NCBI GenBank assembly: GCA_011620595.1
Contig: WOYX01000058.1
Location: 40,053 to 104,052, forward strand
DNA length: 64,000 nucleotides
Source of the DNA: Bacteroidales bacterium
GTDB lineage: Bacteria; Bacteroidota; Bacteroidia; Bacteroidales; VadinHA17
Direction of reading: 5' to 3'
Notes under the pieces: model-generated
Told to the model about the DNA's origin: nothing
The model's database searches: none
The model's input: only the letters and a program-made list of their open reading frames with translations
Shown here: positions 9,177-51,424 of the stretch, piece after piece
Position numbering within the stretch: the first letter of the stretch is position 1
Layout: every line of letters starts with the position of its first letter
Position numbers and translations under genes: made by a program

Positions 9177-9860
9177 TCAGTCGATATGCATTTTTACCCT
9201 GGCGATGTATTTCTCAATGCTTCTTCCCTCATTGCTGTCAGGGTATTTGTCCTGTATCTTTTTGTAAATCTCCAGAGCCCTGGCATAGTCTCCTCCGGTC
9301 TCATACAGCATTCCTGCCTTCATGAGATAGATGGGAGAATGAAATGAGTTATCAGCCATATCGGCAGCCTCAAGGTAGTATTTAATACCCTCACCGGTGT
9401 CACCCAGCTCGACATTGGCATCACCTATAAGCCCTTTGGCCTGGGGGGCCAGTATCTCATCGCTGATCTTGTATTTGTTAAGGTAATCGAGAGCCTCTTC
9501 AAACTGTCCGAGGTGCATCAGTGAGGCTCCGGCATAGAAGTTGGCCAGCTTTCCCGACTTTGTGCTTCTGTATTCATCAGCTATGTCAATGAAACCGAGG
9601 TTGTTGCCGTCACCGTAGAGAGCCAGCTTAAGGGAGTCCTGCCCGAAATACTGTTCTGCCATGAATAACTGACTGAGAGCCTCTTCATTCTTCTTGTTGT
9701 TGAACAATCTGATCAGCCAGATTAGCCCAACCACGACTACGGCTCCGGCCAGCACGTACAAAAGCGGCTTGTAATTCTGCTCCAGGAAATGTTCAGTCTT
9801 TGTCAGTGTCTGTTCAACATTCTCCATTCCCTTGTTGCCGGTATCCTTTTTCTTGCTCAT
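9177..9860 (-). CDS. Membrane-anchored tetratricopeptide repeat protein
   Basis: A 227-residue protein with a charged N-terminus, one membrane helix at about residues 32-51 (LLYVLAGAVVVVGLIWLIRL), and a C-terminal TPR region containing LANFYAGASLMHLGQFEEAL and YARALEIYKKIQDKYPDS. The layout resembles the YfgM family, in which the TPR domain faces the periplasm and works with chaperones near the Sec machinery; that role is inferred, not shown. Transcribed with ribH. A clear TACTTTTG box lies 38 bases upstream. Confidence 0.85.
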   Translation of the reverse strand: MSKKKDTGNKGMENVEQTLTKTEHFLEQNYKPLLYVLAGAVVVVGLIWLIRLFNNKKNEEALSQLFMAEQYFGQDSLKLALYGDGNNLGFIDIADEYRSTKSGKLANFYAGASLMHLGQFEEALDYLNKYKISDEILAPQAKGLIGDANVELGDTGEGIKYYLEAADMADNSFHSPIYLMKAGMLYETGGDYARALEIYKKIQDKYPDSNEGRSIEKYIARVKMHID

Positions 9861-9898
9861 TTCAATGTTCTCTCTTACAGGTCAGAAAAATAACTCCG

Positions 9899-9906
9899 CA
9901 AAAGTA
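9899..9906 (-). promoter_or_regulatory. -7 box (TACTTTTG) of TPR-ribH
   Basis: Reverse complement TACTTTTG matches TAnnTTTG and sits 38 bases upstream of the TPR gene start at 9860, a normal distance for a short untranslated leader. Confidence 0.6.
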
Positions 9907-9992
9907 ATATTTCTCTACTTATTAAAAAATAAAAGCATAAAAAAATGCTCCGGCAGGCGGCAGCCGGGTGAGTGTAAGCATGAGAGATGAAG

Positions 9993-10150
9993 GATGATTG
10001 CCAGGGTTCTTGCCACTGCGGTCGTACCGTTGGTTGATCCGGCGGTTGACCCTGTTCTTGCCCTGGCAGTTGATCTGTCAGTTGACCCTGTTCTTGCCCT
10101 GTCGGTTGATCCGGGGGTTGACTCTGTTTTTGCCCCGCCGGTTGCCTCTG
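9993..10150. repeat. Degenerate 36-base tandem repeat upstream of recF
   Basis: The 338-base gap between the TPR gene and recF (9861-10198) holds the TPR promoter, this repeat and the recF promoter. Units run 10029-10064, 10065-10100 and 10101-10136, each with GGTTGAT or AGTTGAT, then GTTGAC, then TGTTCTTGCCC or a variant. A weaker unit precedes them and a partial one follows. Because 36 is a multiple of three, all frames stay open and give repetitive translations; none has gene-like composition. Confidence 0.8.
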
Positions 10151-10163
10151 CCTTTTCTTTTCT

Positions 10164-10171
10164 TAACTTTG
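10164..10171 (+). promoter_or_regulatory. -7 box (TAACTTTG) of recF
   Basis: Exact TAnnTTTG match, 27 bases upstream of the recF ATG and immediately downstream of the 36-base repeat array. Confidence 0.6.
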
Positions 10172-10198
10172 AAATTCTTTCAGAAGCTATAACTGAAT

Positions 10199-11329
10199 AT
10201 GCACCTTGCCAGGCTGGAACTGACCAATTTCAAGAATTACGGGGAGGTCTCCCTCGATCTCTCACCAGGATTCAACTGCTTTGTGGGAAACAATGGAGTC
10301 GGAAAAACAAACATACTCGACGCAGTGCATTACCTCTCACTCACCAAGAGCTTCTTCAACAATTCTGATGCTCTCAGTATAAAGCACGGTGAGGATTATT
10401 TTATCCTCAAGGGTCTCTTCGTCAGGGATGGCAATACCGATGAACTCTCCTGCGGCTTTCAGAGACAGAAGCAGAAGGTGTTCAGGCTCAACGGCAAGGA
10501 GTACCAGCGCATGTCGGATCATGTGGGCAGATACCCTGTGGTGATGCTTTCCCCGGCTGACAGCATCCTGATCACGGGCCCCGGCGATGAGCGCCGCCGT
10601 TTCATGAATATGATCATCAGCCAGTATGACCCTGTATACCTTGATGCACTCATGCGATATAACAAGGCGCTGATGCAGAGAAACAGGATACTCAGGGAGG
10701 GAGGCCGCGACAGCAGCAGTATGCTTGAGGTCTACGACGAGATGATGCAGCCTGAGGCAGAAGTCATCAACCGCTCACGCAAGGCCCTGACGGATGAGCT
10801 TGTTCCCCTCTTTGCATCCTATTATGCTCAGATATCCGGCGGAGCCGAGAAGGTGGGGATAAGATACAGGTCACATGTCAGTGATGGGGATTTCCGTCAG
10901 CAGCTTGCCAAGGTCCGGGAGAAGGATCTGGCCATGCAGTTCACTACCCTCGGTATACATCGCGACGACCTTCTCTTCGAGATAGACGGCTATTCGGCAC
11001 GTACTACGGCAAGCCAGGGCCAGCAGAAGTCATTCATCGTGGCACTCAAACTGGCAAAGTACGGACTGATAGGAAGAATGAACGGCTTTGCGCCGGCACT
11101 GCTGCTGGATGATATCTTTGACAAGTTTGACAGCAACAGGGTGGAAGAAATAATAAGACTGGTGAGTTCCGGAGAGTTCGGACAGGTGTTCATTACAGAC
11201 ACACAACAGGATCGCATACACCGCATACTCGATACCACCGGCGTCGATTTCAGACTATACCGTATCGGCAGGGGAGGAATAGAGGAGGAGATAACCAACG
11301 GAAGAAAACAGCCAGATGCGCAGGAATAA
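10199..11329 (+). CDS. recF: DNA replication and repair protein RecF
   Basis: RecF is an SMC-like ATPase that, with RecO and RecR, loads RecA at single-strand gaps. The N-terminal HLARLELTNFKNY and Walker A GNNGVGKTN (about 30-38) are typical. The ABC-type signature lies at ASQGQQKSF, and LLLDDIFDKFD provides Walker B and the D-loop. 376 residues is normal length. It overlaps the DUF721 gene downstream by 14 bases. It is not next to dnaA or dnaN, as is usual in this phylum. Confidence 0.96.
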   Translation: MHLARLELTNFKNYGEVSLDLSPGFNCFVGNNGVGKTNILDAVHYLSLTKSFFNNSDALSIKHGEDYFILKGLFVRDGNTDELSCGFQRQKQKVFRLNGKEYQRMSDHVGRYPVVMLSPADSILITGPGDERRRFMNMIISQYDPVYLDALMRYNKALMQRNRILREGGRDSSSMLEVYDEMMQPEAEVINRSRKALTDELVPLFASYYAQISGGAEKVGIRYRSHVSDGDFRQQLAKVREKDLAMQFTTLGIHRDDLLFEIDGYSARTTASQGQQKSFIVALKLAKYGLIGRMNGFAPALLLDDIFDKFDSNRVEEIIRLVSSGEFGQVFITDTQQDRIHRILDTTGVDFRLYRIGRGGIEEEITNGRKQPDAQE

Positions 11330-11606
11330 AACCATAACCATTGGCGAGGCACTGGATGACCTTGTCAGGGAATACAGGCTGGCGCCAAAGCTGAAAGAGG
11401 CATCGGTGCTTAACCTCTGGCAGGGGATCACCGGCAAGGTGATATCCGCCCGAACAAAAAAAATATACCTGAAAGAGGGTGTGCTGCACATCTACCTCAC
11501 CTCTTCAGTGGTGAAAAATGAACTGATGATGCTGCGGGAGTCGCTCTGCAACCAGCTGAATAGCAAGGCAGGAGAGGTGGTGGTCAAAGAGATCGTCGTT
11601 CACTGA
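11316..11606 (+). CDS. DUF721 family protein (DciA-like)
   Basis: A 96-residue DUF721 protein, the family that includes DciA, which loads or recruits the replicative helicase DnaB in bacteria lacking DnaC. Recognisable features are IGEALDDLVREYRL at the N-terminus, the W in LNLWQGITG, and the KH-like core with YLKEGVLHIYLTSSVVKNEL. The start overlaps the recF stop region by 14 bases, a common arrangement that implies co-translation. The family fit is good; helicase loading in this organism is inferred. Confidence 0.88.
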   Translation: MRRNKTITIGEALDDLVREYRLAPKLKEASVLNLWQGITGKVISARTKKIYLKEGVLHIYLTSSVVKNELMMLRESLCNQLNSKAGEVVVKEIVVH

Positions 11607-11671
11607 TGACCGCTCGCCGGCCGGCGCTGACATGTTGACAATCACTGATTAAGGCTGAACTGTCCCGGCCG

Positions 11672-11778
11672 GCGAAGCACTCAGATAACAACATTTGCCG
11701 GCCACGCCTCGCGAAGCACTCAGATAACAACATTTGCCGGCCACCTCGCCAGAAACACTCAGATATCAAAGTTAACCG
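11672..11778. repeat. 39-base direct repeat between convergent genes
   Basis: Two nearly identical units of 39 bases (11672-11710 and 11711-11747) contain GCACTCAGATAACAACA followed by TTTGCCGGCCAC, and a third, partial unit with ACACTCAGATATCAA follows. GGCCGGC palindromes flank and interrupt the array. It lies between the convergent DUF721 gene and the transglutaminase-like gene. No typical terminator is visible in this gap, so the repeats may serve that end. Confidence 0.75.
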
Positions 11779-11811
11779 TTCAGCGATCGCTGTACGAAAA
11801 CCTGTCACATT

Positions 11812-13563
11812 TCAGGATACTTTGTAATCACCCATCCGTATCTCTATCCTGCGATGGTGCCCCTTTGAACTGACAAAATGGTACTCTCTTCCTGCAAAGC
11901 CAAGAACCGCAGATTCTCCTTCATCCAGGTGTATCGTGACCTCTGCTCCGGGGTCGCTGTGCAAAAGCACATTGGCCATCAGAAATGCCTTCTCGGCACC
12001 GTCGCCCCGCCCGAAGTTCCATACCTCATCCGGCTGTGCCATCCTGCCCGAATCATAGATCGACTTGTTTTTCATGCCCGACAGTACTTTATAGATATCG
12101 TCAGCCGATCCACCTGCAAGTGCCGTGTGACATACCGGATTTCTCTCCATGGCAGCCTTGATGAACGGCCTCCAGTCGGCATATTCCATGTCACGGTAGG
12201 CGTAGAGCGCCAGCAGCGACATCTCCGACTGTGATGCCGAAGCCTTTATCTTGCGTATAATATCATCACGGCTGTCCGTGACAACTATTTCCGGAGACAC
12301 TGCTGAAACAAAATCTCTGTCAGCGGACGGAAGCCTTGGCTCTGTTATAGTGAATGCCCTGATATCGATGAACATCCTCCTGACACAGTCGGTATATTCC
12401 GTCGGAAATGATTCGAGGAATCCTGCTTCAAGTTCATTAAGGTCTGACCCTGCCCTTTCCCTCAGAAAGCTCTCAACATCGTTCAGGATGATCCTGCCCG
12501 GTATCGGATCCGGGAAAAACTCTTCGTTGTCCACCTCCGCCAAAAGCTTGTAGCGGGTCTCCTCGTTCATGCCGGCCCTGGATGAGTGCTCATATTCGAA
12601 AAGCTTTTCCAGGGTGATATAATAGGCGGAGCCGGTGCGCAGATAATAATACTGGAAAAGACATTTGTACTCTGACTTGAACCTCAAAAAATTGATAAAT
12701 ACTGCAGGGGTCAGGGATGTAGTAATGAAGTTCCTCAGCTTGTGGCTGAAACTCAGGTAATCATCCCTGTTGATGGTCGCCTTGTCATAGACAGCATGAA
12801 TATGCCCCGTGATGTGTGAGACTATGGTAACCTTTTCATTCTCAAGAGCCCTGCGCGCTTTCCCCGATAACGACGTGCCGTTGAACCACATGTTTCTGGT
12901 CATGATACGGCGGTTGTTGGTGAGAAGCCCCTCCTTCTCATCTATGAAATTCTGCGAGTGCAGAGGAGTGGCTATCATAAATATCTTCTCAAGGGGTATC
13001 TCCCCTACAATGAACATGGCAGCAGCATAAAGCGCCGCCAGACTGACACACTCACCGGCCCCAGTGGTGTAGTGCTCCTTGTGCCTGAAGGCATTCATCG
13101 CCTCCACAGTCTCTGTCTTCCAATATGGTATGACTGAAGAATCATACTTGTCAAGACCGAAATGCTTTCGGATGTCAATACTGAAATAATACCTGTCTCC
13201 CTCATATCCGAAAAGAGCATTTGATTGCTTTAGTAACTCCGTGTCAAAGAAATCAGAGAATCTGGCAATCTCCCTCTCCTTTTCAGTAAGCCCCCAGGTT
13301 TCAAGATCCAGGTTAAAGATATAGTTGTCAATAATATACTGCTTGATGCGGTTGGCCCTGCTGGTGAAATTCTTGCGGTGCATTTCTCTGAACCAGGGGT
13401 CGTCACGCCACTGCCAGATCAGCGGCGACATGATATTTGCCAGCACCAGGGGATAAAAGAGCTCAGGGAAGATAAATATCTCCATATCGGAGAGAGTATA
13501 GGCGGATGAGTATTTCTCAAGCGTCTTCCTGTCAGAAAAGTCGGGAGAAAGTCTGGAAGTCAT
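11812..13563 (-). CDS. Transglutaminase-like protein of unknown role
   Basis: I do not recognise a named family for this 583-residue protein. A transglutaminase-like core is visible: Cys172 in GAGECVSLAALYAAAMF, His202 in ATPLHSQNFID and Asp208, in the order and spacing of a Cys-His-Asp triad. There is no signal peptide or lipobox, so it appears cytoplasmic, which is less common for bacterial transglutaminase-like proteins. The N-terminal and C-terminal parts are rich in charged helices. It follows ndk by 44 bases on the same strand and may share its transcript. A protease or amidase role for the triad is possible; substrate unknown. Confidence 0.75.
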   Translation of the reverse strand: MTSRLSPDFSDRKTLEKYSSAYTLSDMEIFIFPELFYPLVLANIMSPLIWQWRDDPWFREMHRKNFTSRANRIKQYIIDNYIFNLDLETWGLTEKEREIARFSDFFDTELLKQSNALFGYEGDRYYFSIDIRKHFGLDKYDSSVIPYWKTETVEAMNAFRHKEHYTTGAGECVSLAALYAAAMFIVGEIPLEKIFMIATPLHSQNFIDEKEGLLTNNRRIMTRNMWFNGTSLSGKARRALENEKVTIVSHITGHIHAVYDKATINRDDYLSFSHKLRNFITTSLTPAVFINFLRFKSEYKCLFQYYYLRTGSAYYITLEKLFEYEHSSRAGMNEETRYKLLAEVDNEEFFPDPIPGRIILNDVESFLRERAGSDLNELEAGFLESFPTEYTDCVRRMFIDIRAFTITEPRLPSADRDFVSAVSPEIVVTDSRDDIIRKIKASASQSEMSLLALYAYRDMEYADWRPFIKAAMERNPVCHTALAGGSADDIYKVLSGMKNKSIYDSGRMAQPDEVWNFGRGDGAEKAFLMANVLLHSDPGAEVTIHLDEGESAVLGFAGREYHFVSSKGHHRRIEIRMGDYKVS

Positions 13564-41168: not shown

Positions 41169-41735
41169 TCAGGCCCTCGTCTCCGGGGTGCTGATCATTG
41201 CCAGGTAGAGCATAGCCTGCTCAATGAAAGAGGCTGTGCTGAACGGACCGGGTGTCCTGATCATCAGGTCGTAAGGCGATTTCTCGGGTTCAGTGGCCAT
41301 GTCAGGACCAACCTTCATGGGCGATGATGAGAGGAAGACAGCAGCAGTAAGCGGAAAAACAGAACCGGGATTGATGTCTATGATCAGATCAAAGTCTGAA
41401 CTTATGAATTTCCTGGCATCTTCCGAGGTGGGTATGAAAGCCCAGTTAAGATCAGCCGGCTTCAGAAACTTCATGTATGTCAGGCCGGTAAGTCTGTCGG
41501 GAACGGTTTTGCCAGGTATCCATGCCAGCACCTCAACACTCTTGCCGGCTTGCATAAGCTGTTTATTCAATGCAGCCAGGTGCTGAAAATCCTTTTCTGA
41601 TGAGGCATCCCATAGTATGCCTACCCTTCTTACCTTTTCCAGGTCAAACTCCTTCCTGATCCTCCTGAAGGGTGATGTTCGCCTCCGGATGATCATCCTG
41701 CCGGCCTTGAGTCTGAGATTGCCTAGAATTTCCAT
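41169..41735 (-). CDS. DUF6913 family protein
   Basis: A 188-residue protein with no known function, of a type I associate with Bacteroidota (DUF6913). It begins with a basic helix (LRLKAGRMIIRRRTSPFRRIRKEF), then an alternating strand-helix part with VGILWDASSEKDFQHLAALNKQL and the short motif LIIDINPGSVFPLTAAVFLS. No signal peptide or metal site seen. The promoter box at 41743-41750 suggests it is transcribed apart from ligA, which lies upstream on the same strand. Confidence 0.78.
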   Translation of the reverse strand: MEILGNLRLKAGRMIIRRRTSPFRRIRKEFDLEKVRRVGILWDASSEKDFQHLAALNKQLMQAGKSVEVLAWIPGKTVPDRLTGLTYMKFLKPADLNWAFIPTSEDARKFISSDFDLIIDINPGSVFPLTAAVFLSSSPMKVGPDMATEPEKSPYDLMIRTPGPFSTASFIEQAMLYLAMISTPETRA

Positions 41736-41742
41736 CGTTATG

Positions 41743-41750
41743 CAAACCTA
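41743..41750 (-). promoter_or_regulatory. -7 box (TAGGTTTG) of the DUF6913 gene
   Basis: Reverse complement TAGGTTTG is an exact TAnnTTTG match seven bases before the ATG at 41735, again implying a very short leader. Confidence 0.55.
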
Positions 41751-41784
41751 TATTTTTTTTGGGTCATAGCGCATCAGGTCAACA

Positions 41785-43821
<2,037 letters not shown>

Positions 43822-44946
43822 TCAGCTCCATACGCCCGGAATAACGGCTCCGCAACCGCACCTGCCGTTTCTGATCTCATCTGTCACGATCCTGAAGCCA
43901 CTCCTGTCAATCAGCTTCTTACCGCATGACGGACAAAATGTATCGTCATGACCTGAGCCCGGCACATTACCCATGTATACGAACTTAATACCTTCATCAT
44001 GTGCAATCTTCACGGCGGTTTCCAGTATCTTAACAGGAGTGGGAGACAGGTGTTCCAGTTTGTATTGGGGTTGAAAACGGCTGAAATGGAGTGGCGTGTC
44101 GGCAAAACCGTTGTCATGCAGCCACCTGCACATCTCCCTTATCTCATCCGGCTTATCGGTCCAGCCCGGGACAATCAGGTTTGTGATCTCAAGCCAGACG
44201 CCCTCATCGCGGTATACCCCGAGAGCATCAAGGACTGGCTGGAGCTTGCCCCCGGTAAGCTTGAGATATGTGCTGTCACTGAATGACTTAAGGTCGATGT
44301 TGGCACCGTCGATATGCCTGCACAGATCCTTCAGGGGCTCCTTGTTAATATAACCGTTCGATACCATTATATTCCTGAGACCCTTTTCGTGAGCTACCCT
44401 GGAGGTCTCATAGACATACTCATAGAAAGTAACCGGTTCAGAGTAGGTGTAAGCTATGCTTTTTGATCCGGCGGCAAGGGCATGGGCCACTACATCATCC
44501 GGAGGCATATCGTAGTTTTTTGTCTTGTCGGGTGAAGTTTGCGATATGGTCCAGTTCTGGCAGTTCAGGCAGGCAAAGTTACAGCCGGCCGTAGCGATGG
44601 AAAAGACAGAGCTGCCCGGGAGGAAGTGGAACATCGGCTTCTTCTCCATTGGATCTACATTTGCTGCACAGGGATTTCCGAAGGCCATGGTGTAAAGTTT
44701 TGACCTCCTTGCTACCCTGTTGCGGCAATCGCTCACCTCGCCATCCTTAAGCGTGCACTCATTGGGGCATATCATGCATACAACCCCTCGCGCACTCTGC
44801 TGCTGGTACATGGCCAGCCTCTCATGTGAAGCCGGAAGGGTGGCATGCAACGGAAGAGGAGCGATCATCCCGGCAGCAACGGCGATAGAACTCCTGCGGG
44901 CAAAGTCCCTCCTCGTTATCTTACTTCTTTTTGCGGTTGCTGACAT
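43822..44946 (-). CDS. amrS: AmmeMemoRadiSam system radical SAM enzyme with twin-arginine signal
   Basis: A 374-residue radical SAM protein of the AmmeMemoRadiSam family. The cluster cysteines are Cys122, Cys126 and Cys129 in CNFACLNC. A second Cys set before it (CMICPNEC..., Cys74, Cys93) and a C-terminal zinc-ribbon-like pair (CPSCG, CGCG) are present. The N-terminus has ITRRDFARRS at 10-19 followed by a hydrophobic stretch (IAVAAGMIAPLPL), fitting a Tat signal, so the folded iron-sulfur enzyme is probably exported. It follows the membrane protein gene by 26 bases. The reaction is unknown to me. Confidence 0.9.
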   Translation of the reverse strand: MSATAKRSKITRRDFARRSSIAVAAGMIAPLPLHATLPASHERLAMYQQQSARGVVCMICPNECTLKDGEVSDCRNRVARRSKLYTMAFGNPCAANVDPMEKKPMFHFLPGSSVFSIATAGCNFACLNCQNWTISQTSPDKTKNYDMPPDDVVAHALAAGSKSIAYTYSEPVTFYEYVYETSRVAHEKGLRNIMVSNGYINKEPLKDLCRHIDGANIDLKSFSDSTYLKLTGGKLQPVLDALGVYRDEGVWLEITNLIVPGWTDKPDEIREMCRWLHDNGFADTPLHFSRFQPQYKLEHLSPTPVKILETAVKIAHDEGIKFVYMGNVPGSGHDDTFCPSCGKKLIDRSGFRIVTDEIRNGRCGCGAVIPGVWS

Positions 44947-44972
44947 AGGTGTATCAGTTATGGATCATAAAA

Positions 44973-47393
44973 CTAATGCTTAATCACCACTGATGCAACA
45001 GTGCCGGATATTAAAATGAGTGCTGCGAGAACGTAACAGGCACCGGCAGTGCCGGCAAGAGGCACAACCAGGGTGGCAACGGTGAGATAACCCAGTGCAG
45101 CTCCGGCAAGGTCTGAGGCATAAACCGAACCTGTCGTTTCTCCCACACCTGTTGTTGTGAGGATCCTGTAAACAGCACCTGTAATGAAACCTGCCACCGG
45201 AAGAAAAATAAACATTACCGCAATGACTGTACGGGGCGGTGCCGTAACAAGCGAAGGGCTCAGCAGTCCGGTAACCAGGTACAGAGCCGCCAGAAGCACT
45301 GTACAGACTGAGAGTCTGGTCAGGGACAGAAGGTGACCCCGGGCTGCACCGGCCGCCAGTCCGGCCATAAGAAGCGTAAGTATGATTGCGGAAAGTATGT
45401 AGATGTTGCCTGCAGTGATCTGCAGAATGAACATCATTATCATCCCAAAACCTGCCAGCGCCGCTGACGAGGTGAACATCATGATCCCTCCCCGGCGGAT
45501 GAACAGAAACGGGATCAGCAGTAAAACCGCCAGTATTGTTATCATCTCTCCGCTGTTGCCCATCCTCTCCAGCGAAAGAATGTTGGCAAAGAGCGACGAG
45601 ACAGGCCTCATGGCACTATTCATTCCGGCCCCCCTGTCAACCTGCAGGATAATCTGTTCACCCCTCATCCTTATCTCCACGTCATCAAGATAATCACTGT
45701 TCACGTAACTGTTTTCCAGTGACCGGGTCCCGGAAAGACGTGATATCGCCGGGGTGACCGGGCGATCAGAGGCGACAGCATAGAGAACGGAGCCTGGTAT
45801 CAGGGCTATGTAACTGAATGCCTCGTCCAGGGCATTGTAAAGAGGGGAGAAACTCTTCCGGTAACTCTCCGGGGAGTAGTTGTAATATGGCATGGGTGTG
45901 CAGAGGAAGATACCCTTTTCTGACAGATGCTCCTTAACCAGTTGGAAGTACTCCACCGTATAGAACCTGTTGACTGCAAGGCTGGAGGGCGGAGGTATCA
46001 GCTGCAGCACAGCATCATATGTCTCTTCACTCTCTCTCAGCTCTGTTATCGGGTCGTTTCTGACCACGGTCACCGTCATGCCTCCGGCAACAGTGTCACG
46101 GACGCCTTCAGCAGCAATGACACCAGGGTCAAGTTCAATATAAACAAGCTCTTTGATGTCATACTTCCCAAGCTCGGGCAGATGTCTGCGGAGACCTCCG
46201 GAGATGAGCATCACCTTTTGATGGCTTTCCCTTTGAAGAAGTGCATAATGAACGTTCTCCTCACTGCTGACGATGTCGCTGCTGAAAAACAGGGGCCTGT
46301 GATCGTAAAAGACGGTCTGTTCCCCGCTGTAAATGGCTGTGGTAATGTTGCCAAACGGTGTGTCAGTGCTCTTCACTGTTTTGACACCGCGCAGCAGAAG
46401 GCTCCTTGCAGGCAGATCCGGATTTGCTATAATTGCAATGATAACCAGGGGTATCAAAGTAATAATCACTAACCGTGTCGTCCTGACCGGATAGCCGAGA
46501 AGGGTCACGGCAATACCGGCGGCAAAAAGCAGTATCAGAAGATAGAGCTCGTAATTGGGTATGTGCAGCGTCACTGTCACGGCTGTAACCACCCCGGCTG
46601 CTACCGACCCGACTGTCTCAATTCCGAAGCTGCCGCCGGGAGCCAGCCCTGAAGCAGCCTTCCTGATGACCGAGAGCCTGATGAAAACCAGTGATGCGAT
46701 AAAGGTCACAGGGGCGACACTGACCGCAAGGATGGCTGCTGTCTGCAGTAGTGTGGCTGTCTCGCCGCGGTTGAGCAGAAGGATGTTCATGAGTATGAAG
46801 GCGACAGGGGCAAGGGCCGTGGCGGCAAGCAGTGTCCAGATCATCCTTCTCACCTTCGTTATCTTTGACCTGTTGCCTGCAATGGCGCCTGCAGCGGCAA
46901 TGATCAGCCAGACCCACAGGAATAGTGCTGCCGAGACCTCCGTTCCGCCACCAAGGATCACCGCCTCACGCATCATAATAAACTGCGACGATGAGCTGAC
47001 AAAACCGGTAAGCAGGAGAAGCAGCGATGAACTCTCAACCGGAACCATGTCAGGGGAGAAATCAGCTGCAGAAACAGCCTCGCTCTGCCTGCCCCTTCCA
47101 AAATAGTAACTGAGATTATGTGCAAGGTGGATAATGGTCACAAATATCATTGAAATACCGGCCTCAACATGCCAGGTCAGCAACTTGTCATAGAACGGAA
47201 TATCCCATTTGTAGGTTATCTTCAGTGCCATAAAGAGGCCGAAGAGCCCTGTCAGGGTAAAAACGGCAAGCAGCACCCAGTTCCAGAAGCGACGGTGCGA
47301 TTGCCTGGCGGTGAACCCCGTGGAAGAGAGGTAATAAGTGTAGAGATAGAATATCAGGACTGTGAGTCCTATGGGAATGACATGGTATGTCAT
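44973..47393 (-). CDS. Polytopic membrane protein with spermidine-synthase-like domain
   Basis: An 806-residue protein with about 16 membrane helices around a central soluble domain (about 335-560) of the spermidine-synthase/SAM-methyltransferase fold: VMLISGGLRRHLPEL, YIELDPGVI, VVRNDP. The catalytic Asp expected after YD (YDVIIVDSTDP type) is missing; here the sequence is YDAVLQLIPPP, so aminopropyl transfer is doubtful. The N-terminal part has three helices; His75 and His89 (His-x13-His) lie on the third, with His92, spaced like haem-b ligands. It overlaps amrBA upstream by four bases and precedes amrS by 26. Function unknown; a partner of the AmmeMemoRadiSam proteins is inferred. Confidence 0.8.
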   Translation of the reverse strand: MTYHVIPIGLTVLIFYLYTYYLSSTGFTARQSHRRFWNWVLLAVFTLTGLFGLFMALKITYKWDIPFYDKLLTWHVEAGISMIFVTIIHLAHNLSYYFGRGRQSEAVSAADFSPDMVPVESSSLLLLLTGFVSSSSQFIMMREAVILGGGTEVSAALFLWVWLIIAAAGAIAGNRSKITKVRRMIWTLLAATALAPVAFILMNILLLNRGETATLLQTAAILAVSVAPVTFIASLVFIRLSVIRKAASGLAPGGSFGIETVGSVAAGVVTAVTVTLHIPNYELYLLILLFAAGIAVTLLGYPVRTTRLVIITLIPLVIIAIIANPDLPARSLLLRGVKTVKSTDTPFGNITTAIYSGEQTVFYDHRPLFFSSDIVSSEENVHYALLQRESHQKVMLISGGLRRHLPELGKYDIKELVYIELDPGVIAAEGVRDTVAGGMTVTVVRNDPITELRESEETYDAVLQLIPPPSSLAVNRFYTVEYFQLVKEHLSEKGIFLCTPMPYYNYSPESYRKSFSPLYNALDEAFSYIALIPGSVLYAVASDRPVTPAISRLSGTRSLENSYVNSDYLDDVEIRMRGEQIILQVDRGAGMNSAMRPVSSLFANILSLERMGNSGEMITILAVLLLIPFLFIRRGGIMMFTSSAALAGFGMIMMFILQITAGNIYILSAIILTLLMAGLAAGAARGHLLSLTRLSVCTVLLAALYLVTGLLSPSLVTAPPRTVIAVMFIFLPVAGFITGAVYRILTTTGVGETTGSVYASDLAGAALGYLTVATLVVPLAGTAGACYVLAALILISGTVASVVIKH

Positions 47394-48904
47394 CTGTGGT
47401 CCTTTTCGCCGAAGACATAGGCTTCGTAGACAAAGATCTCACAGTTTTTGTCTTTCCACCCGTCCCAGCCGATACCTGCCTTGTCACGTGCGCAGTATCC
47501 AAGGAACTGCTCTGCAGTCCATCCTCTTTCTGAGGCAACCTGGGGAAGGAGGGTACCGGACCTCATGCCGTTCTTCAGATAAATGCCGTGTGTGCCAATC
47601 TTTATCTCCTCAGCCCCCCTGACTTTTTTCATCGGTCCGAGAACCGATATTTCAATCTCTGTCAGCGGATACTCGGCAGCCGTCAGCTCCGGAAACCTGG
47701 GATCGCCGAATGCTGCCTCCACAGCCATCTGAGCTATCACCTCATATAGTGGCTCCGATGAGGTGAAGCGGCCAATGCAACCTCTCAGCTCTCCCTTTTT
47801 CGTTATCGTGACGAAAGCTCCCAGCGGCTCCCTGAGACGAGGAGTGATCTTCGAGGGGTCCACAGGATCGGGACGCCGTCCCCGGAGCCTGGCAGAGATG
47901 GCACCTCGGGCGATGGCCAGCAGTGTGCTTTTCTCGCCTGCAGTCAGCAGGAACTTTTCTCCGGACCGGGATGGCTGCTCTGCTGCAACACTTTTCTTCT
48001 CCAACACAATGGCATTGTACCCTACCACCTCATCCCTGCCACCATGCGGCGAGTCACCGGAATTGGAGTAACCTGCATTACGCCAGGTAAGCCCTGACTG
48101 CCCTTCTGTAAGATAGAGAAGGACGAGACCTGCAGGCCACCCACACATGGCCGTCACCAGGTTGTGGGTGCCGGACGTCTCGATGGCTTTGACAGTTTTC
48201 AGAAAGTTGTCAGGGTCACCCTTGATGATGGCATCGGCGGTAAGCCTGTCCACCTTCCGGGCATCTTCATAGGAGGGATAGTGAGAGAAGTCGCTGCTGA
48301 TGACAAAAAGGTTGCGGTCGTTGAACCACGGCTGCAACCCCCTGGCCACGGCCTTGAGTACGTTTGTGGTGCGGGTGCCGATAAGTATTGGAACTACCGC
48401 CGGTTGACGTTCAAAATGGTACTGAATGAAGGGAAGCTGCACCTCCAGGGAGTGCTCGGGACCATGGGCAGCATCATGCCCGATGAACCACCTGTTGGTT
48501 GCCCTGAGCTTCTCTCCCGCCTCCCGGTTGACCTTGACCTTTCCCAATGGAGTAACCATGTCACCGGAGGTAAATACCGCCGCTCCCTCAAAGGTGTACC
48601 TGTGACTTACACCTATGAGAAACACATTGTCATAGTCAGCCCCGGAAGGTATGGCTGCAAAGCCTGCAGCAGCCGTGCGGCCTGAAAAAACATAACCTGC
48701 ATGCGGCACAATCAGCGCCCTGACCCTTACCCCCGGCAATGGAGCCCCGGCCTTTGCAAAACAGGCTGCAAGCTCATCCCTGAGCGCAACGCCGGAGGCA
48801 GGGTAAAAGCTGCCGGATACGGCAGGCTGCCTGTCTTGCCCCTGTCCGAATATTTTCATAGGCGATAGTATTAACGCAACCAGAATTATGCCAACAGTTT
48901 TCAT
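47390..48904 (-). CDS. amrBA: Exported Memo-AMMECR1 fusion (AmmeMemoRadiSam system proteins B and A)
   Basis: A 504-residue fusion. A signal peptide (MKTVGIILVALILSPMKIFG) is followed by a Memo domain to about 305 and an AMMECR1 domain from about 320 to the end (GAFVTITKKGELRGCIGRF, FGDPRFPELTAAEYP). The Memo metal site known from human MEMO1 is fully kept: His68 (VPHAGY), His101 (GVSHRY), His208 (SDFSHY) and Cys254 (MCGWPAG). Export of this system is unusual relative to the cytoplasmic forms known to me. First gene of a three-gene operon with the membrane protein and amrS. A near-match -7 box TACCTTTA lies at 48925-48932. Confidence 0.9.
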   Translation of the reverse strand: MKTVGIILVALILSPMKIFGQGQDRQPAVSGSFYPASGVALRDELAACFAKAGAPLPGVRVRALIVPHAGYVFSGRTAAAGFAAIPSGADYDNVFLIGVSHRYTFEGAAVFTSGDMVTPLGKVKVNREAGEKLRATNRWFIGHDAAHGPEHSLEVQLPFIQYHFERQPAVVPILIGTRTTNVLKAVARGLQPWFNDRNLFVISSDFSHYPSYEDARKVDRLTADAIIKGDPDNFLKTVKAIETSGTHNLVTAMCGWPAGLVLLYLTEGQSGLTWRNAGYSNSGDSPHGGRDEVVGYNAIVLEKKSVAAEQPSRSGEKFLLTAGEKSTLLAIARGAISARLRGRRPDPVDPSKITPRLREPLGAFVTITKKGELRGCIGRFTSSEPLYEVIAQMAVEAAFGDPRFPELTAAEYPLTEIEISVLGPMKKVRGAEEIKIGTHGIYLKNGMRSGTLLPQVASERGWTAEQFLGYCARDKAGIGWDGWKDKNCEIFVYEAYVFGEKDHR

Positions 48905-48966: not shown

Positions 48967-49425
48967 TCAGATAAGAACGATATTCTCCTTCAGGGTGTTA
49001 CCGTCATCATCGATGCCGTATAGCTTGATACCTACACTGCAGGTGGCATCAGCAGTGACATCCAGGAACGGCGAGAGGGATTCCCTCACATCTTCTTCGC
49101 CCATCGAGTCATACTCCTCGATGTCAAAGTAGAGATGAACAAAAAGTATGTGATCGTTCTTTTTGATTTTCGTGAGTGCCTTCAGAATCTTGCCCATCCA
49201 GAGTACTGAAGAGGTATTGAAGTAATCAACGTTGAATTTCAGGTTTGTGCTCTCTGCAGGATTCTTTGCATATTCAACCGCCCACTTGTAGAGAGGCTCA
49301 AAGAAACCAGTTGCATTCTCCGGTAACGATTTACCGGTAAATGAAAGATTCCCGGTGCTCGCGACAAAATTGACCTGCGGTGTTTTTGTGGTAGCCTCTA
49401 CCTTAATATCCTTAAGCTTTACCAT
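48967..49425 (-). CDS. SiaC-family regulatory protein (DUF1987)
   Basis: A 152-residue DUF1987 protein. In Pseudomonas, SiaC is the switched partner of a SiaA phosphatase and SiaB kinase, and activates a diguanylate cyclase when unphosphorylated. The motif DYFNTSSVLWMGKIL holds Thr71, matching the SiaC phosphosite. No siaA, siaB or GGDEF gene is in the window, so this is an orphan copy here. A near-match box TACCTTTA lies at 49480-49487. It ends 62 bases before amrBA on the same strand. Confidence 0.82.
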   Translation of the reverse strand: MVKLKDIKVEATTKTPQVNFVASTGNLSFTGKSLPENATGFFEPLYKWAVEYAKNPAESTNLKFNVDYFNTSSVLWMGKILKALTKIKKNDHILFVHLYFDIEEYDSMGEEDVRESLSPFLDVTADATCSVGIKLYGIDDDGNTLKENIVLI

Positions 49426-49609
49426 AGTATTTTAGTCGTTTCCTTCCCAGTCACGCATTATTGCCCCAATAGAACTTCATAAAGGTAACCTGTTTTTTTA
49501 GAAGGTATTTCCGTATTCGTCAAAAAAAAATAACCAGTTATCAACTTTTTTAAATAATTTGTCCCTTTGTTGTCTCATTCTTTCAGACAGTTCGTTCAAC
49601 AGGAAATAC

Positions 49610-49617
49610 TATCTTTG
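49610..49617 (+). promoter_or_regulatory. -7 box (TATCTTTG) of argS
   Basis: Exact TAnnTTTG match 19 bases upstream of the argS ATG. Confidence 0.65.
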
Positions 49618-49636
49618 CAGCCATAATTGAACGAGA

Positions 49637-51424
49637 ATGGAAAACCTGCTCAGGAAGGGCGTGCGTGAGGCTGTAAGAGAGATATGGGGAACAGATGTCA
49701 GTGATGACCTGCTGCAGATACAGAAGACCAGGAAGGAATTTGCCGGTGACCTTACACTGGTGGTCTTTCCCCTTACCCGCATCTCCCGCGGTACACCTGA
49801 AAATTGTGCTGATGCCATAGGTCACTGGCTCACCGCAAATGTCAGTGCCGTGAGTGAATATAATGTGATCAGGGGTTTCCTTAATGTTACCATCGCCCCT
49901 TCGGAATGGGCAAGACGTCTGGAAACGGTGTCTGCCACTGAAAATTACGGTTTTCTGGAGGCGGGAGACTCTTCGCCCATGATCGTGATCGAATACTCCT
50001 CACCCAACACCAACAAGCCCCTCCACCTCGGCCATATCAGGAACAACCTCCTGGGCTTCTCCCTATCCAGGATCTGCAGTGCTGCAGGAAACAGGGTGAT
50101 CAGAACCAACATTGTAAACGACCGCGGAATTCACATCTGCAAGTCGATGCTGGCATGGCAGATGTTCGGTAACGGTGAAACACCCGAAACAACCGGGAAA
50201 AAGGGAGATCACCTTGTGGGCGATTACTATGTTTTGTTTGAACACAAACTGCGTGAACAGTCAGAACAACTCATCGCAGAAGGCATGACACCCGAAGAGG
50301 CGAGGGACAATGCCCCACTGATGAAGCAGGCAAGAGAGCTCCTCCTCAAATGGGAGGCAGGCGATACCGATACCGTTGAATTGTGGAGAGAGATGAATTC
50401 CTGGGTCTATGAGGGATTTGACACTACCTATAAAGCCCTCGGAGTGGAGTTCGATAAGATATATTATGAGTCTGATACATACAAAATAGGCAAGGAGCTG
50501 GTAATCAAGTCGCTGGAGAAGGGCGACCTTATCAGGAAGGATGACGGCTCTGTATGGATAGACCTTACCGCCGACAACCTGGACCAGAAACTGTTGCTCC
50601 GCTCCGACGGCACCGCCGTCTACATGACACAGGACCTGGGAACGGCTGTGATACGGTATGCCGACTATCATTTTGACAGGCATATCTACGTTGTGGGTAA
50701 TGAACAGAACTACCACTTCCAGGTACTTGCACTGACGCTGATGCGGATGGGATACCGATGGGCAGAAGGACTGCATCACTTCTCCTATGGAATGGTTGAA
50801 CTGCCTGAAGGCAAGATGAAATCGAGAGAAGGAAAAGTGGTTGATGCCGATGACCTGATAGAGGAGATGATCGCCACTGCTACGGAAATGTCAAGAGAAC
50901 TTGGCAAATTGGAAGACTACAGCGGGATCGAAAGAGCAAATATCTGCAGACAGATAGGATTGGGTGCCCTCAAATACTTCATACTCAAGGTTGACCCAAA
51001 AAAGAACATGACCTTCAACCCGGCAGAATCAATAGACTTCAACGGCAATACAGGTCCCTTTATACAGTATACCTACGCCCGCATCAGGTCAGTAATGAAA
51101 AAGGCTGAAGAGACAGGGGCCGGTCAGGGCGAAAGAGACTGCAGTGATGTAATCCCAAACCTTAAGGAGATCAGTGTCATAAAACTGCTGAACGACTTCC
51201 CCTCCCTGGTTGTTGAAGCATCGGAAGAGCTCAGCCCCGCACTGATTGCAAATTATTGTTACGAACTGGCAAGGGAGTTCAACCAGTTCTATCATGATTA
51301 TTCCATCCTCGGTGAGAAGGATAAAAAGATACGCGACTTCAGACTGAAACTCACCGCAGTGACAGGCAGGGTGATTGAAAAAGGACTCTGGCTTCTGGGT
51401 ATTGAAGCGCCGGAAAGAATGTGA
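49637..51424 (+). CDS. argS: Arginine-tRNA ligase
   Basis: Class I synthetase that charges tRNA-Arg. HLGH (residues 130-133) is the HIGH motif. The KMSKS loop is replaced by MKSREGKVVDADD, a known variation in arginyl synthetases. The N-terminal Add1 domain and the C-terminal anticodon-binding DALR region (YCYELAREFNQFYHDYSIL) are complete; 595 residues is normal. Promoter box at 49610-49617; ffh follows after 19 bases. Confidence 0.97.
   Translation: MENLLRKGVREAVREIWGTDVSDDLLQIQKTRKEFAGDLTLVVFPLTRISRGTPENCADAIGHWLTANVSAVSEYNVIRGFLNVTIAPSEWARRLETVSATENYGFLEAGDSSPMIVIEYSSPNTNKPLHLGHIRNNLLGFSLSRICSAAGNRVIRTNIVNDRGIHICKSMLAWQMFGNGETPETTGKKGDHLVGDYYVLFEHKLREQSEQLIAEGMTPEEARDNAPLMKQARELLLKWEAGDTDTVELWREMNSWVYEGFDTTYKALGVEFDKIYYESDTYKIGKELVIKSLEKGDLIRKDDGSVWIDLTADNLDQKLLLRSDGTAVYMTQDLGTAVIRYADYHFDRHIYVVGNEQNYHFQVLALTLMRMGYRWAEGLHHFSYGMVELPEGKMKSREGKVVDADDLIEEMIATATEMSRELGKLEDYSGIERANICRQIGLGALKYFILKVDPKKNMTFNPAESIDFNGNTGPFIQYTYARIRSVMKKAEETGAGQGERDCSDVIPNLKEISVIKLLNDFPSLVVEASEELSPALIANYCYELAREFNQFYHDYSILGEKDKKIRDFRLKLTAVTGRVIEKGLWLLGIEAPERM

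Follow-up and report, generated by a model that had tools for sequence, protein, structure and literature searches.

The closest described relatives of the locus analysed here are the AmmeMemoRadiSam systems, which are defined by three protein families (TIGR04335, TIGR04336 and TIGR04337; genes amrA, amrB and amrS). The last of these three families contains radical SAM enzymes, which are regarded as cytoplasmic since their work depends on SAM, on electrons of low potential and on a cluster sensitive to oxygen. In the literature searched, which left most subscription papers outside, we found neither a functional study of AmmeMemoRadiSam nor any description of a radical SAM enzyme in the periplasm. 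The locus lies in a window (the whole stretch of DNA analysed) of 64,000 nucleotides and shares with the described systems all three families, the neighbouring arrangement of the genes and the conserved metal ligands and cluster cysteines. However, it adds export signals on both the Memo-AMMECR1 fusion and the radical SAM enzyme and has a further gene for a transporter-like membrane protein, here called MID. Judged by its sequence, the system is AmmeMemoRadiSam, in an apparently exported version with MID. The features concerned are as follows.

47390..48904, minus strand: Memo-AMMECR1 fusion (AmmeMemoRadiSam proteins B and A), 504 aa, with an N-terminal signal peptide MKTVGIILVALILSPMKIFGQG
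44973..47393, minus strand: MID, a large membrane protein of 806 aa with 17 predicted transmembrane helices
47094..47393, minus strand: N-terminal domain of MID (residues 1-100), three-helix and His-rich
45555..46424, minus strand: spermidine-synthase-like domain of MID (residues 324-613), predicted periplasmic
43822..44946, minus strand: radical SAM enzyme of TIGR04337, 374 aa, with a Tat-like N-terminal extension ITRRDFARRSSIAVAAGMIAPLPLHA before Cys57
41785..43800, minus strand: ligA, which by sequence encodes an NAD-dependent DNA ligase and begins 21 bases past the radical SAM gene

A preliminary description of this DNA had reported three adjacent minus-strand genes joined by a four-base overlap and a 26-base gap, and the coordinates, strand and spacing were all verified. 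The gene run probably extends into ligA and a DUF6913 gene; ligA is probably co-transcribed with the triplet, although no functional link is claimed, and the order radical SAM gene then ligA recurs in many relatives. With the flanking positions 41169-43800 and 48967-51424 included, this part of the window reads argS, a SiaC-like gene, fusion, MID, radical SAM gene, ligA and DUF6913, an order also present at L154, L166 and L183 and kept in many Bacteroidales. Among 80 loci of MID relatives, all complete ones are ordered fusion, MID, radical SAM gene, except L158, where an opposite-strand gene of 798 aa and a small frame (9470-12157) separate MID from the radical SAM gene and break the usual spacing. 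The source names of many relatives point to anoxic settings (fens, lake sediment, a sulphidic cave), which suits oxygen-sensitive chemistry.

In profile searches the fusion exceeds the cut-offs of both TIGR04336 (220 bits) and TIGR04335 (165 bits), so that a Memo-like and an AMMECR1-like part are found in one fused gene, one gene away from the radical SAM gene, as expected of an AmmeMemoRadiSam system. The only Memo and the only AMMECR1 of this genome both lie in this exported-type fusion. The four Memo metal ligands said to be retained (His68, His101, His208 and Cys254) are indeed invariant in 24 homologues, as is Asp205, and these five residues align with H49, H81, H192, C244 and D189 of MEMO1, whose metal ligands were taken from PMC9477392. 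The signal peptide assigned earlier to the fusion is borne out by comparison between loci, since a hydrophobic N-terminus is present in all 100 loci that have MID and in none of the 13 that lack it. In some relatives the signals are lipoprotein-like, several of them with lipobox-like cysteines.

The radical SAM enzyme scores 336.6 bits against TIGR04337 (cut-off 220). Its CxxxCxxC cysteines (122/126/129) are invariant in 36 homologues, both exported and cytoplasmic, and the two forms also have in common the Tyr-Ser-Glu-Pro region and N- and C-terminal cysteines. The earlier claim of a twin-arginine motif followed by a hydrophobic stretch stands. The Tat model TIGR01409 matches residues 9-29 at 13.8 bits, below its cut-off of 16.7, and the protein is for this reason called Tat-like rather than a proven Tat substrate, with export judged instead by comparison of homologues. 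The window protein carries TRRDF, the intact members of its genus that were seen carry RR, and [KR]R-x-F is found across the wider clade; many members of the family and order have KR instead, the weaker motif. Without exception, the intact signal-bearing relatives of the first survey showed [KR]R-x-F and, after it, a moderately hydrophobic stretch, a combination seen in none of the signal-less paralogues. Among 60 related genomes, the signal-bearing type has 51-87 residues ahead of the first cysteine motif, whereas most of the signal-less type have about 11-21 and lack both [KR]R-x-F and the hydrophobic stretch. A few longer signal-less frames also lack the motif, and their extra length probably reflects the choice of the longest start codon. 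TatC is encoded in this genome and in 56 of the 60 genomes searched, and the twin-arginine motif, the moderately hydrophobic segment and TatC expected for a Tat substrate are thus all found together. Chance signal peptides were considered and are ruled out by the clean separation of signal-bearing from signal-less paralogues. The genome itself holds two TIGR04337 genes, one of each type: the second (G000:C5:36582-37544; L004 6550-7557) is a stand-alone gene with neither extension nor signal.

The preliminary description had proposed a survey of genomes comparing exported with cytoplasmic versions, and in this survey the signals on both genes and MID occur and vanish together. Where at least 3 kb of flank was available, MID lies within 4 kb of 79 of the 80 signal-bearing radical SAM genes, the one exception being L050, in whose genome MID sits on another contig, and beside 0 of the 33 stand-alone signal-less genes. 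These totals, like those for the N-terminus of the fusion, include 80 loci drawn from named genomes among 445 MID relatives and fetched with MID as bait, so that only the survey of 60 genomes, which started from the radical SAM gene, and the survey of the phylum are unbiased. In the former, a signal-bearing radical SAM gene was found in 37 of 39 genomes with MID; the remaining two (G009 and G012) are only 70-79% complete, and in one MID-less genome (G004, 71% complete) a contig end truncates a radical SAM gene that belongs to the exported clade. In the latter, full-length MID occurs in only four of 118 genomes (G000, G098, G137 and G156), which are also the genomes of this sample with radical SAM genes of exported type; the first three have signal-bearing genes, and that of G156 is cut. 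In G061, G123 and G125 the match covers part of MID only, the frames being some 520 aa long. The apparent exceptions L051 and L077 are located at contig ends. Two signal-less genes do accompany MID, namely a tandem copy within a triplet and L168, whose open frame begins at the first cysteine and which is probably truncated or frameshifted. Signal-less tandem copies directly adjoining an exported triplet were seen at L079 (318-1328), L177 and L180.

Three changes suffice to explain the signal state on a tree of 125 rows, where shuffling gives a mean near 41, and the signal-bearing radical SAM genes of Bacteroidota relatives form essentially one clade by sequence. This clade comprises 57 signal-bearing rows and three others: L168, the tandem copy L009/L079 beside its triplet, and L025/L092, which belongs to G058. 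G058 (L092 4446-6992) has its exported-clade fusion and radical SAM gene on opposite strands, both of them signal-less, and no MID was found in a genome-wide search; this appears to be a return to the cytoplasm in which both signals and MID were lost together. The plasmid copies examined from Ideonella and Sinorhizobium carry no signals. That the operon is entirely exported or membrane-bound, as was first suggested, is strongly supported by this comparison, in which signals and MID are present together and lost together. The proteins of the system very probably share a periplasmic location, and in silico there is good support for export of both soluble partners, the fusion and the radical SAM enzyme.

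The membrane protein between the two enzymes had been described as having about 16 helices; 17 are predicted, and a spermidine-synthase-like domain of about 290 residues had been overlooked. Residues 1-100 form the three-helix His-rich domain, 116-323 and 614-806 two halves of a transporter of the major facilitator superfamily (MFS), and 324-613 the predicted periplasmic domain. Pfam recognises the spermidine synthase domain only. The AlphaFold2 model of MID (pLDDT 87, pTM 0.87) was compared with known folds, and for residues 116-806 the matches include SV2A (Z 22.7, rmsd 3.8, 324 residues), with NorC (Z 20.1, rmsd 4.1, 315 residues), the human nucleoside transporter ENT1 (Z 20.0) and GLUT1 (Z 18.3, rmsd 4.0, 342 residues) also matching MID, so that the membrane region of the predicted model has an MFS fold. 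The inserted domain is flanked by seven helices on each side, resembling 14-helix MFS proteins. The loops predicted to be inside are richer in Lys/Arg in 42 of 42 MID homologues, a bias that predicts both the N-terminus of MID and its spermidine-synthase-like domain to be outside, in agreement with the usual MFS orientation. The shared fold says nothing on the substrate of MID, and transport or binding of SAM would be our inference.

This domain (residues about 326-608 of the predicted model) matches the Thermus thermophilus spermidine synthase 1uir with Z 22.7 and rmsd 3.3 over 273 aligned residues. It shares with SpeE (e.g. 1uir/3anx) the fold and the acidic positions which, from the alignment and general knowledge of the family, we take to bind the adenosyl group, Asp447 being invariant and Glu420 nearly invariant among MID homologues. 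Unlike SpeE, it is predicted to be periplasmic, and the catalytic DxxDP is replaced in all MID examined by L-x-P-P-P or similar, followed by N-R-x-Y-T. An active spermidine synthase (aminopropyltransferase) was considered for MID and rejected, as the catalytic aspartates are lost throughout. With the adenosyl-binding Glu/Asp kept and the polyamine-handling aspartates lost, an adenosyl ligand fits better than a polyamine. Transporter-like helices combined with a spermidine-synthase-like domain are also found in the fused MFS/spermidine synthase family (NF037959), which 30 of 42 MID members match at E<=1, and in the membrane polyamine aminopropyltransferases (PRK03612), matched by 42 of 42 at the same threshold; the window MID itself has no NF037959 match at E<=1 and scores 54 against a PRK03612 cut-off of 472. 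MID differs from both families in the loss of the catalytic aspartates, the position of the domain between two seven-helix halves, the additional His-rich domain and the linkage to exported AmmeMemoRadiSam genes.

The N-terminal domain, when residues 1-100 are modelled alone, forms three helices with a pLDDT of 94.5. Among MID homologues His33, His75 and His89 are nearly or fully invariant and His4 is frequent, and these four are candidate ligands of b-type heme, for which the helix boundaries suggest one pair (His33/His89) near the cytoplasmic face and another (His4/His75) near the periplasmic face. Conserved histidines near the ends of transmembrane helices are shared with b-type cytochromes, of which the DUF4405, cytochrome b561 and ferric reductase families match repeatedly but weakly, all below Pfam cut-offs; most MID members match DUF4405 over its full length, again below cut-off. 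A fold search with the domain returned no cytochrome among its best hits, but this search was uninformative and the absence is not evidence. The domain differs from these cytochrome families in having three helices and in not being universal in MID: it is present in most relatives and missing from the MID of at least seven genomes (G008, G026, G041, G047, G098, G137 and G156), and hence cannot be essential everywhere. No strong separate copy of it was found by genome-wide search in the MID genomes that lack it, and its role as an obligatory electron donor is accordingly rejected as a general rule.

In the genus of G098, which belongs to a distant class and has MID without the His-rich domain, the radical SAM extensions of four of five species (L233, L234, L235 and L237) carry CxxCH and (F/Y)DH after RR-x-F, while the fifth (L236) has YxxCH. 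These motifs suggest a possible heme c site. Covalent attachment of heme c occurs outside the cytoplasm, and such a site, if real, would require the radical SAM enzyme to be located there.

The reading we prefer is that the triplet is an envelope-facing variant of AmmeMemoRadiSam in which MID handles SAM or its products and sometimes electrons, a reading for which we judge the chances to be even. The radical SAM enzyme would be exported folded, most likely via Tat, so as to receive its iron-sulphur cluster while still in the cytoplasm, and the fusion would leave through a signal of Sec or lipoprotein type. MID, seated in the inner membrane with its MFS core and with its catalytically altered spermidine-synthase-like domain in the periplasm, would move SAM, or return 5'-deoxyadenosine or methionine, across the membrane and present SAM to the exported enzyme. 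In most lineages the His-rich domain might also carry electrons from quinol to the cluster of the enzyme, which would perform radical chemistry on an envelope substrate whose product the fusion would bind or process. What the comparison shows are signals, co-occurrence, predicted topology and folds; we infer transport, ligand, electron flow, complex formation and substrate. A role for MID with SAM or another adenosyl compound is put forward tentatively; the complete arrangement, in which a periplasmic radical SAM enzyme is given SAM and in most lineages electrons by a dedicated MID, is slightly more tentative still, and the electron role of the N-terminal domain is rather doubtful. The original suggestion that the membrane partner provides either SAM or electrons therefore remains conjectural: the transporter fold, the periplasmic domain with adenosyl-binding residues and the cytochrome-b-like domain of most members favour it, whereas the half concerning electrons is weakened by the genomes whose MID lacks that domain.

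It could instead be that the three proteins are exported together and that MID transports the substrate or product of the system rather than feeding the enzyme, its spermidine-synthase-like domain binding that compound, which might for instance be akin to polyamines or nucleosides, or be a precursor of the envelope. SAM would then be bound before export and serve for one or a few turnovers. Proteins of MFS fold handle many different substrates, the fused MFS/spermidine synthase is the NCBIfam model closest to MID in architecture, and Tat exports folded, cofactor-loaded proteins, which fits SAM being carried out already bound. However, the pattern of acidic residues kept and lost favours an adenosyl ligand over a polyamine, and MID goes with whether the radical SAM gene is of exported type rather than with its mere presence; we regard this alternative as unlikely.

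Iron-sulphur chemistry at low potential would be hard to supply outside the cytoplasm, and the exported proteins might have given up radical SAM chemistry, serving in the envelope to bind metals or in redox binding, or as an enzyme with another role. Human MEMO1 is a copper-binding protein whose active site is called vestigial in the paper on its structure (PMC9477392 and its reference 17), in keeping with such a loss. Against this, the exported forms keep the cluster cysteines, the Tyr-Ser-Glu-Pro region and the terminal cysteines, and even distant exported homologues are at least 53% identical to the window protein, which together suggest selection for activity and make the loss of chemistry improbable. 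Less probable again is a cytoplasmic radical SAM enzyme held at the membrane, its N-terminal extension being a tether or a misprediction, as the Tat score below cut-off and the many relatives with KR might suggest. Even with an N-in anchor or an inserted N-terminal signal the catalytic part would come to lie outside, the signals of the fusion track the radical SAM extensions, and TatC is present along with, in one lineage, CxxCH in the extension.

If envelope-facing AmmeMemoRadiSam chemistry is real, the system would amount to radical SAM catalysis beyond the cytoplasm, and we met with no precedent for this in the literature searched. The conserved module couples export signals to the plausible adenosyl-binding domain of MID, making periplasmic chemistry directly testable. 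The AmmeMemoRadiSam proteins have human relatives in MEMO1 and AMMECR1, and the presence of exported and cytoplasmic paralogues in one genome, together with a lineage that has lost both signals and MID, offers natural comparisons for finding the function of the family.
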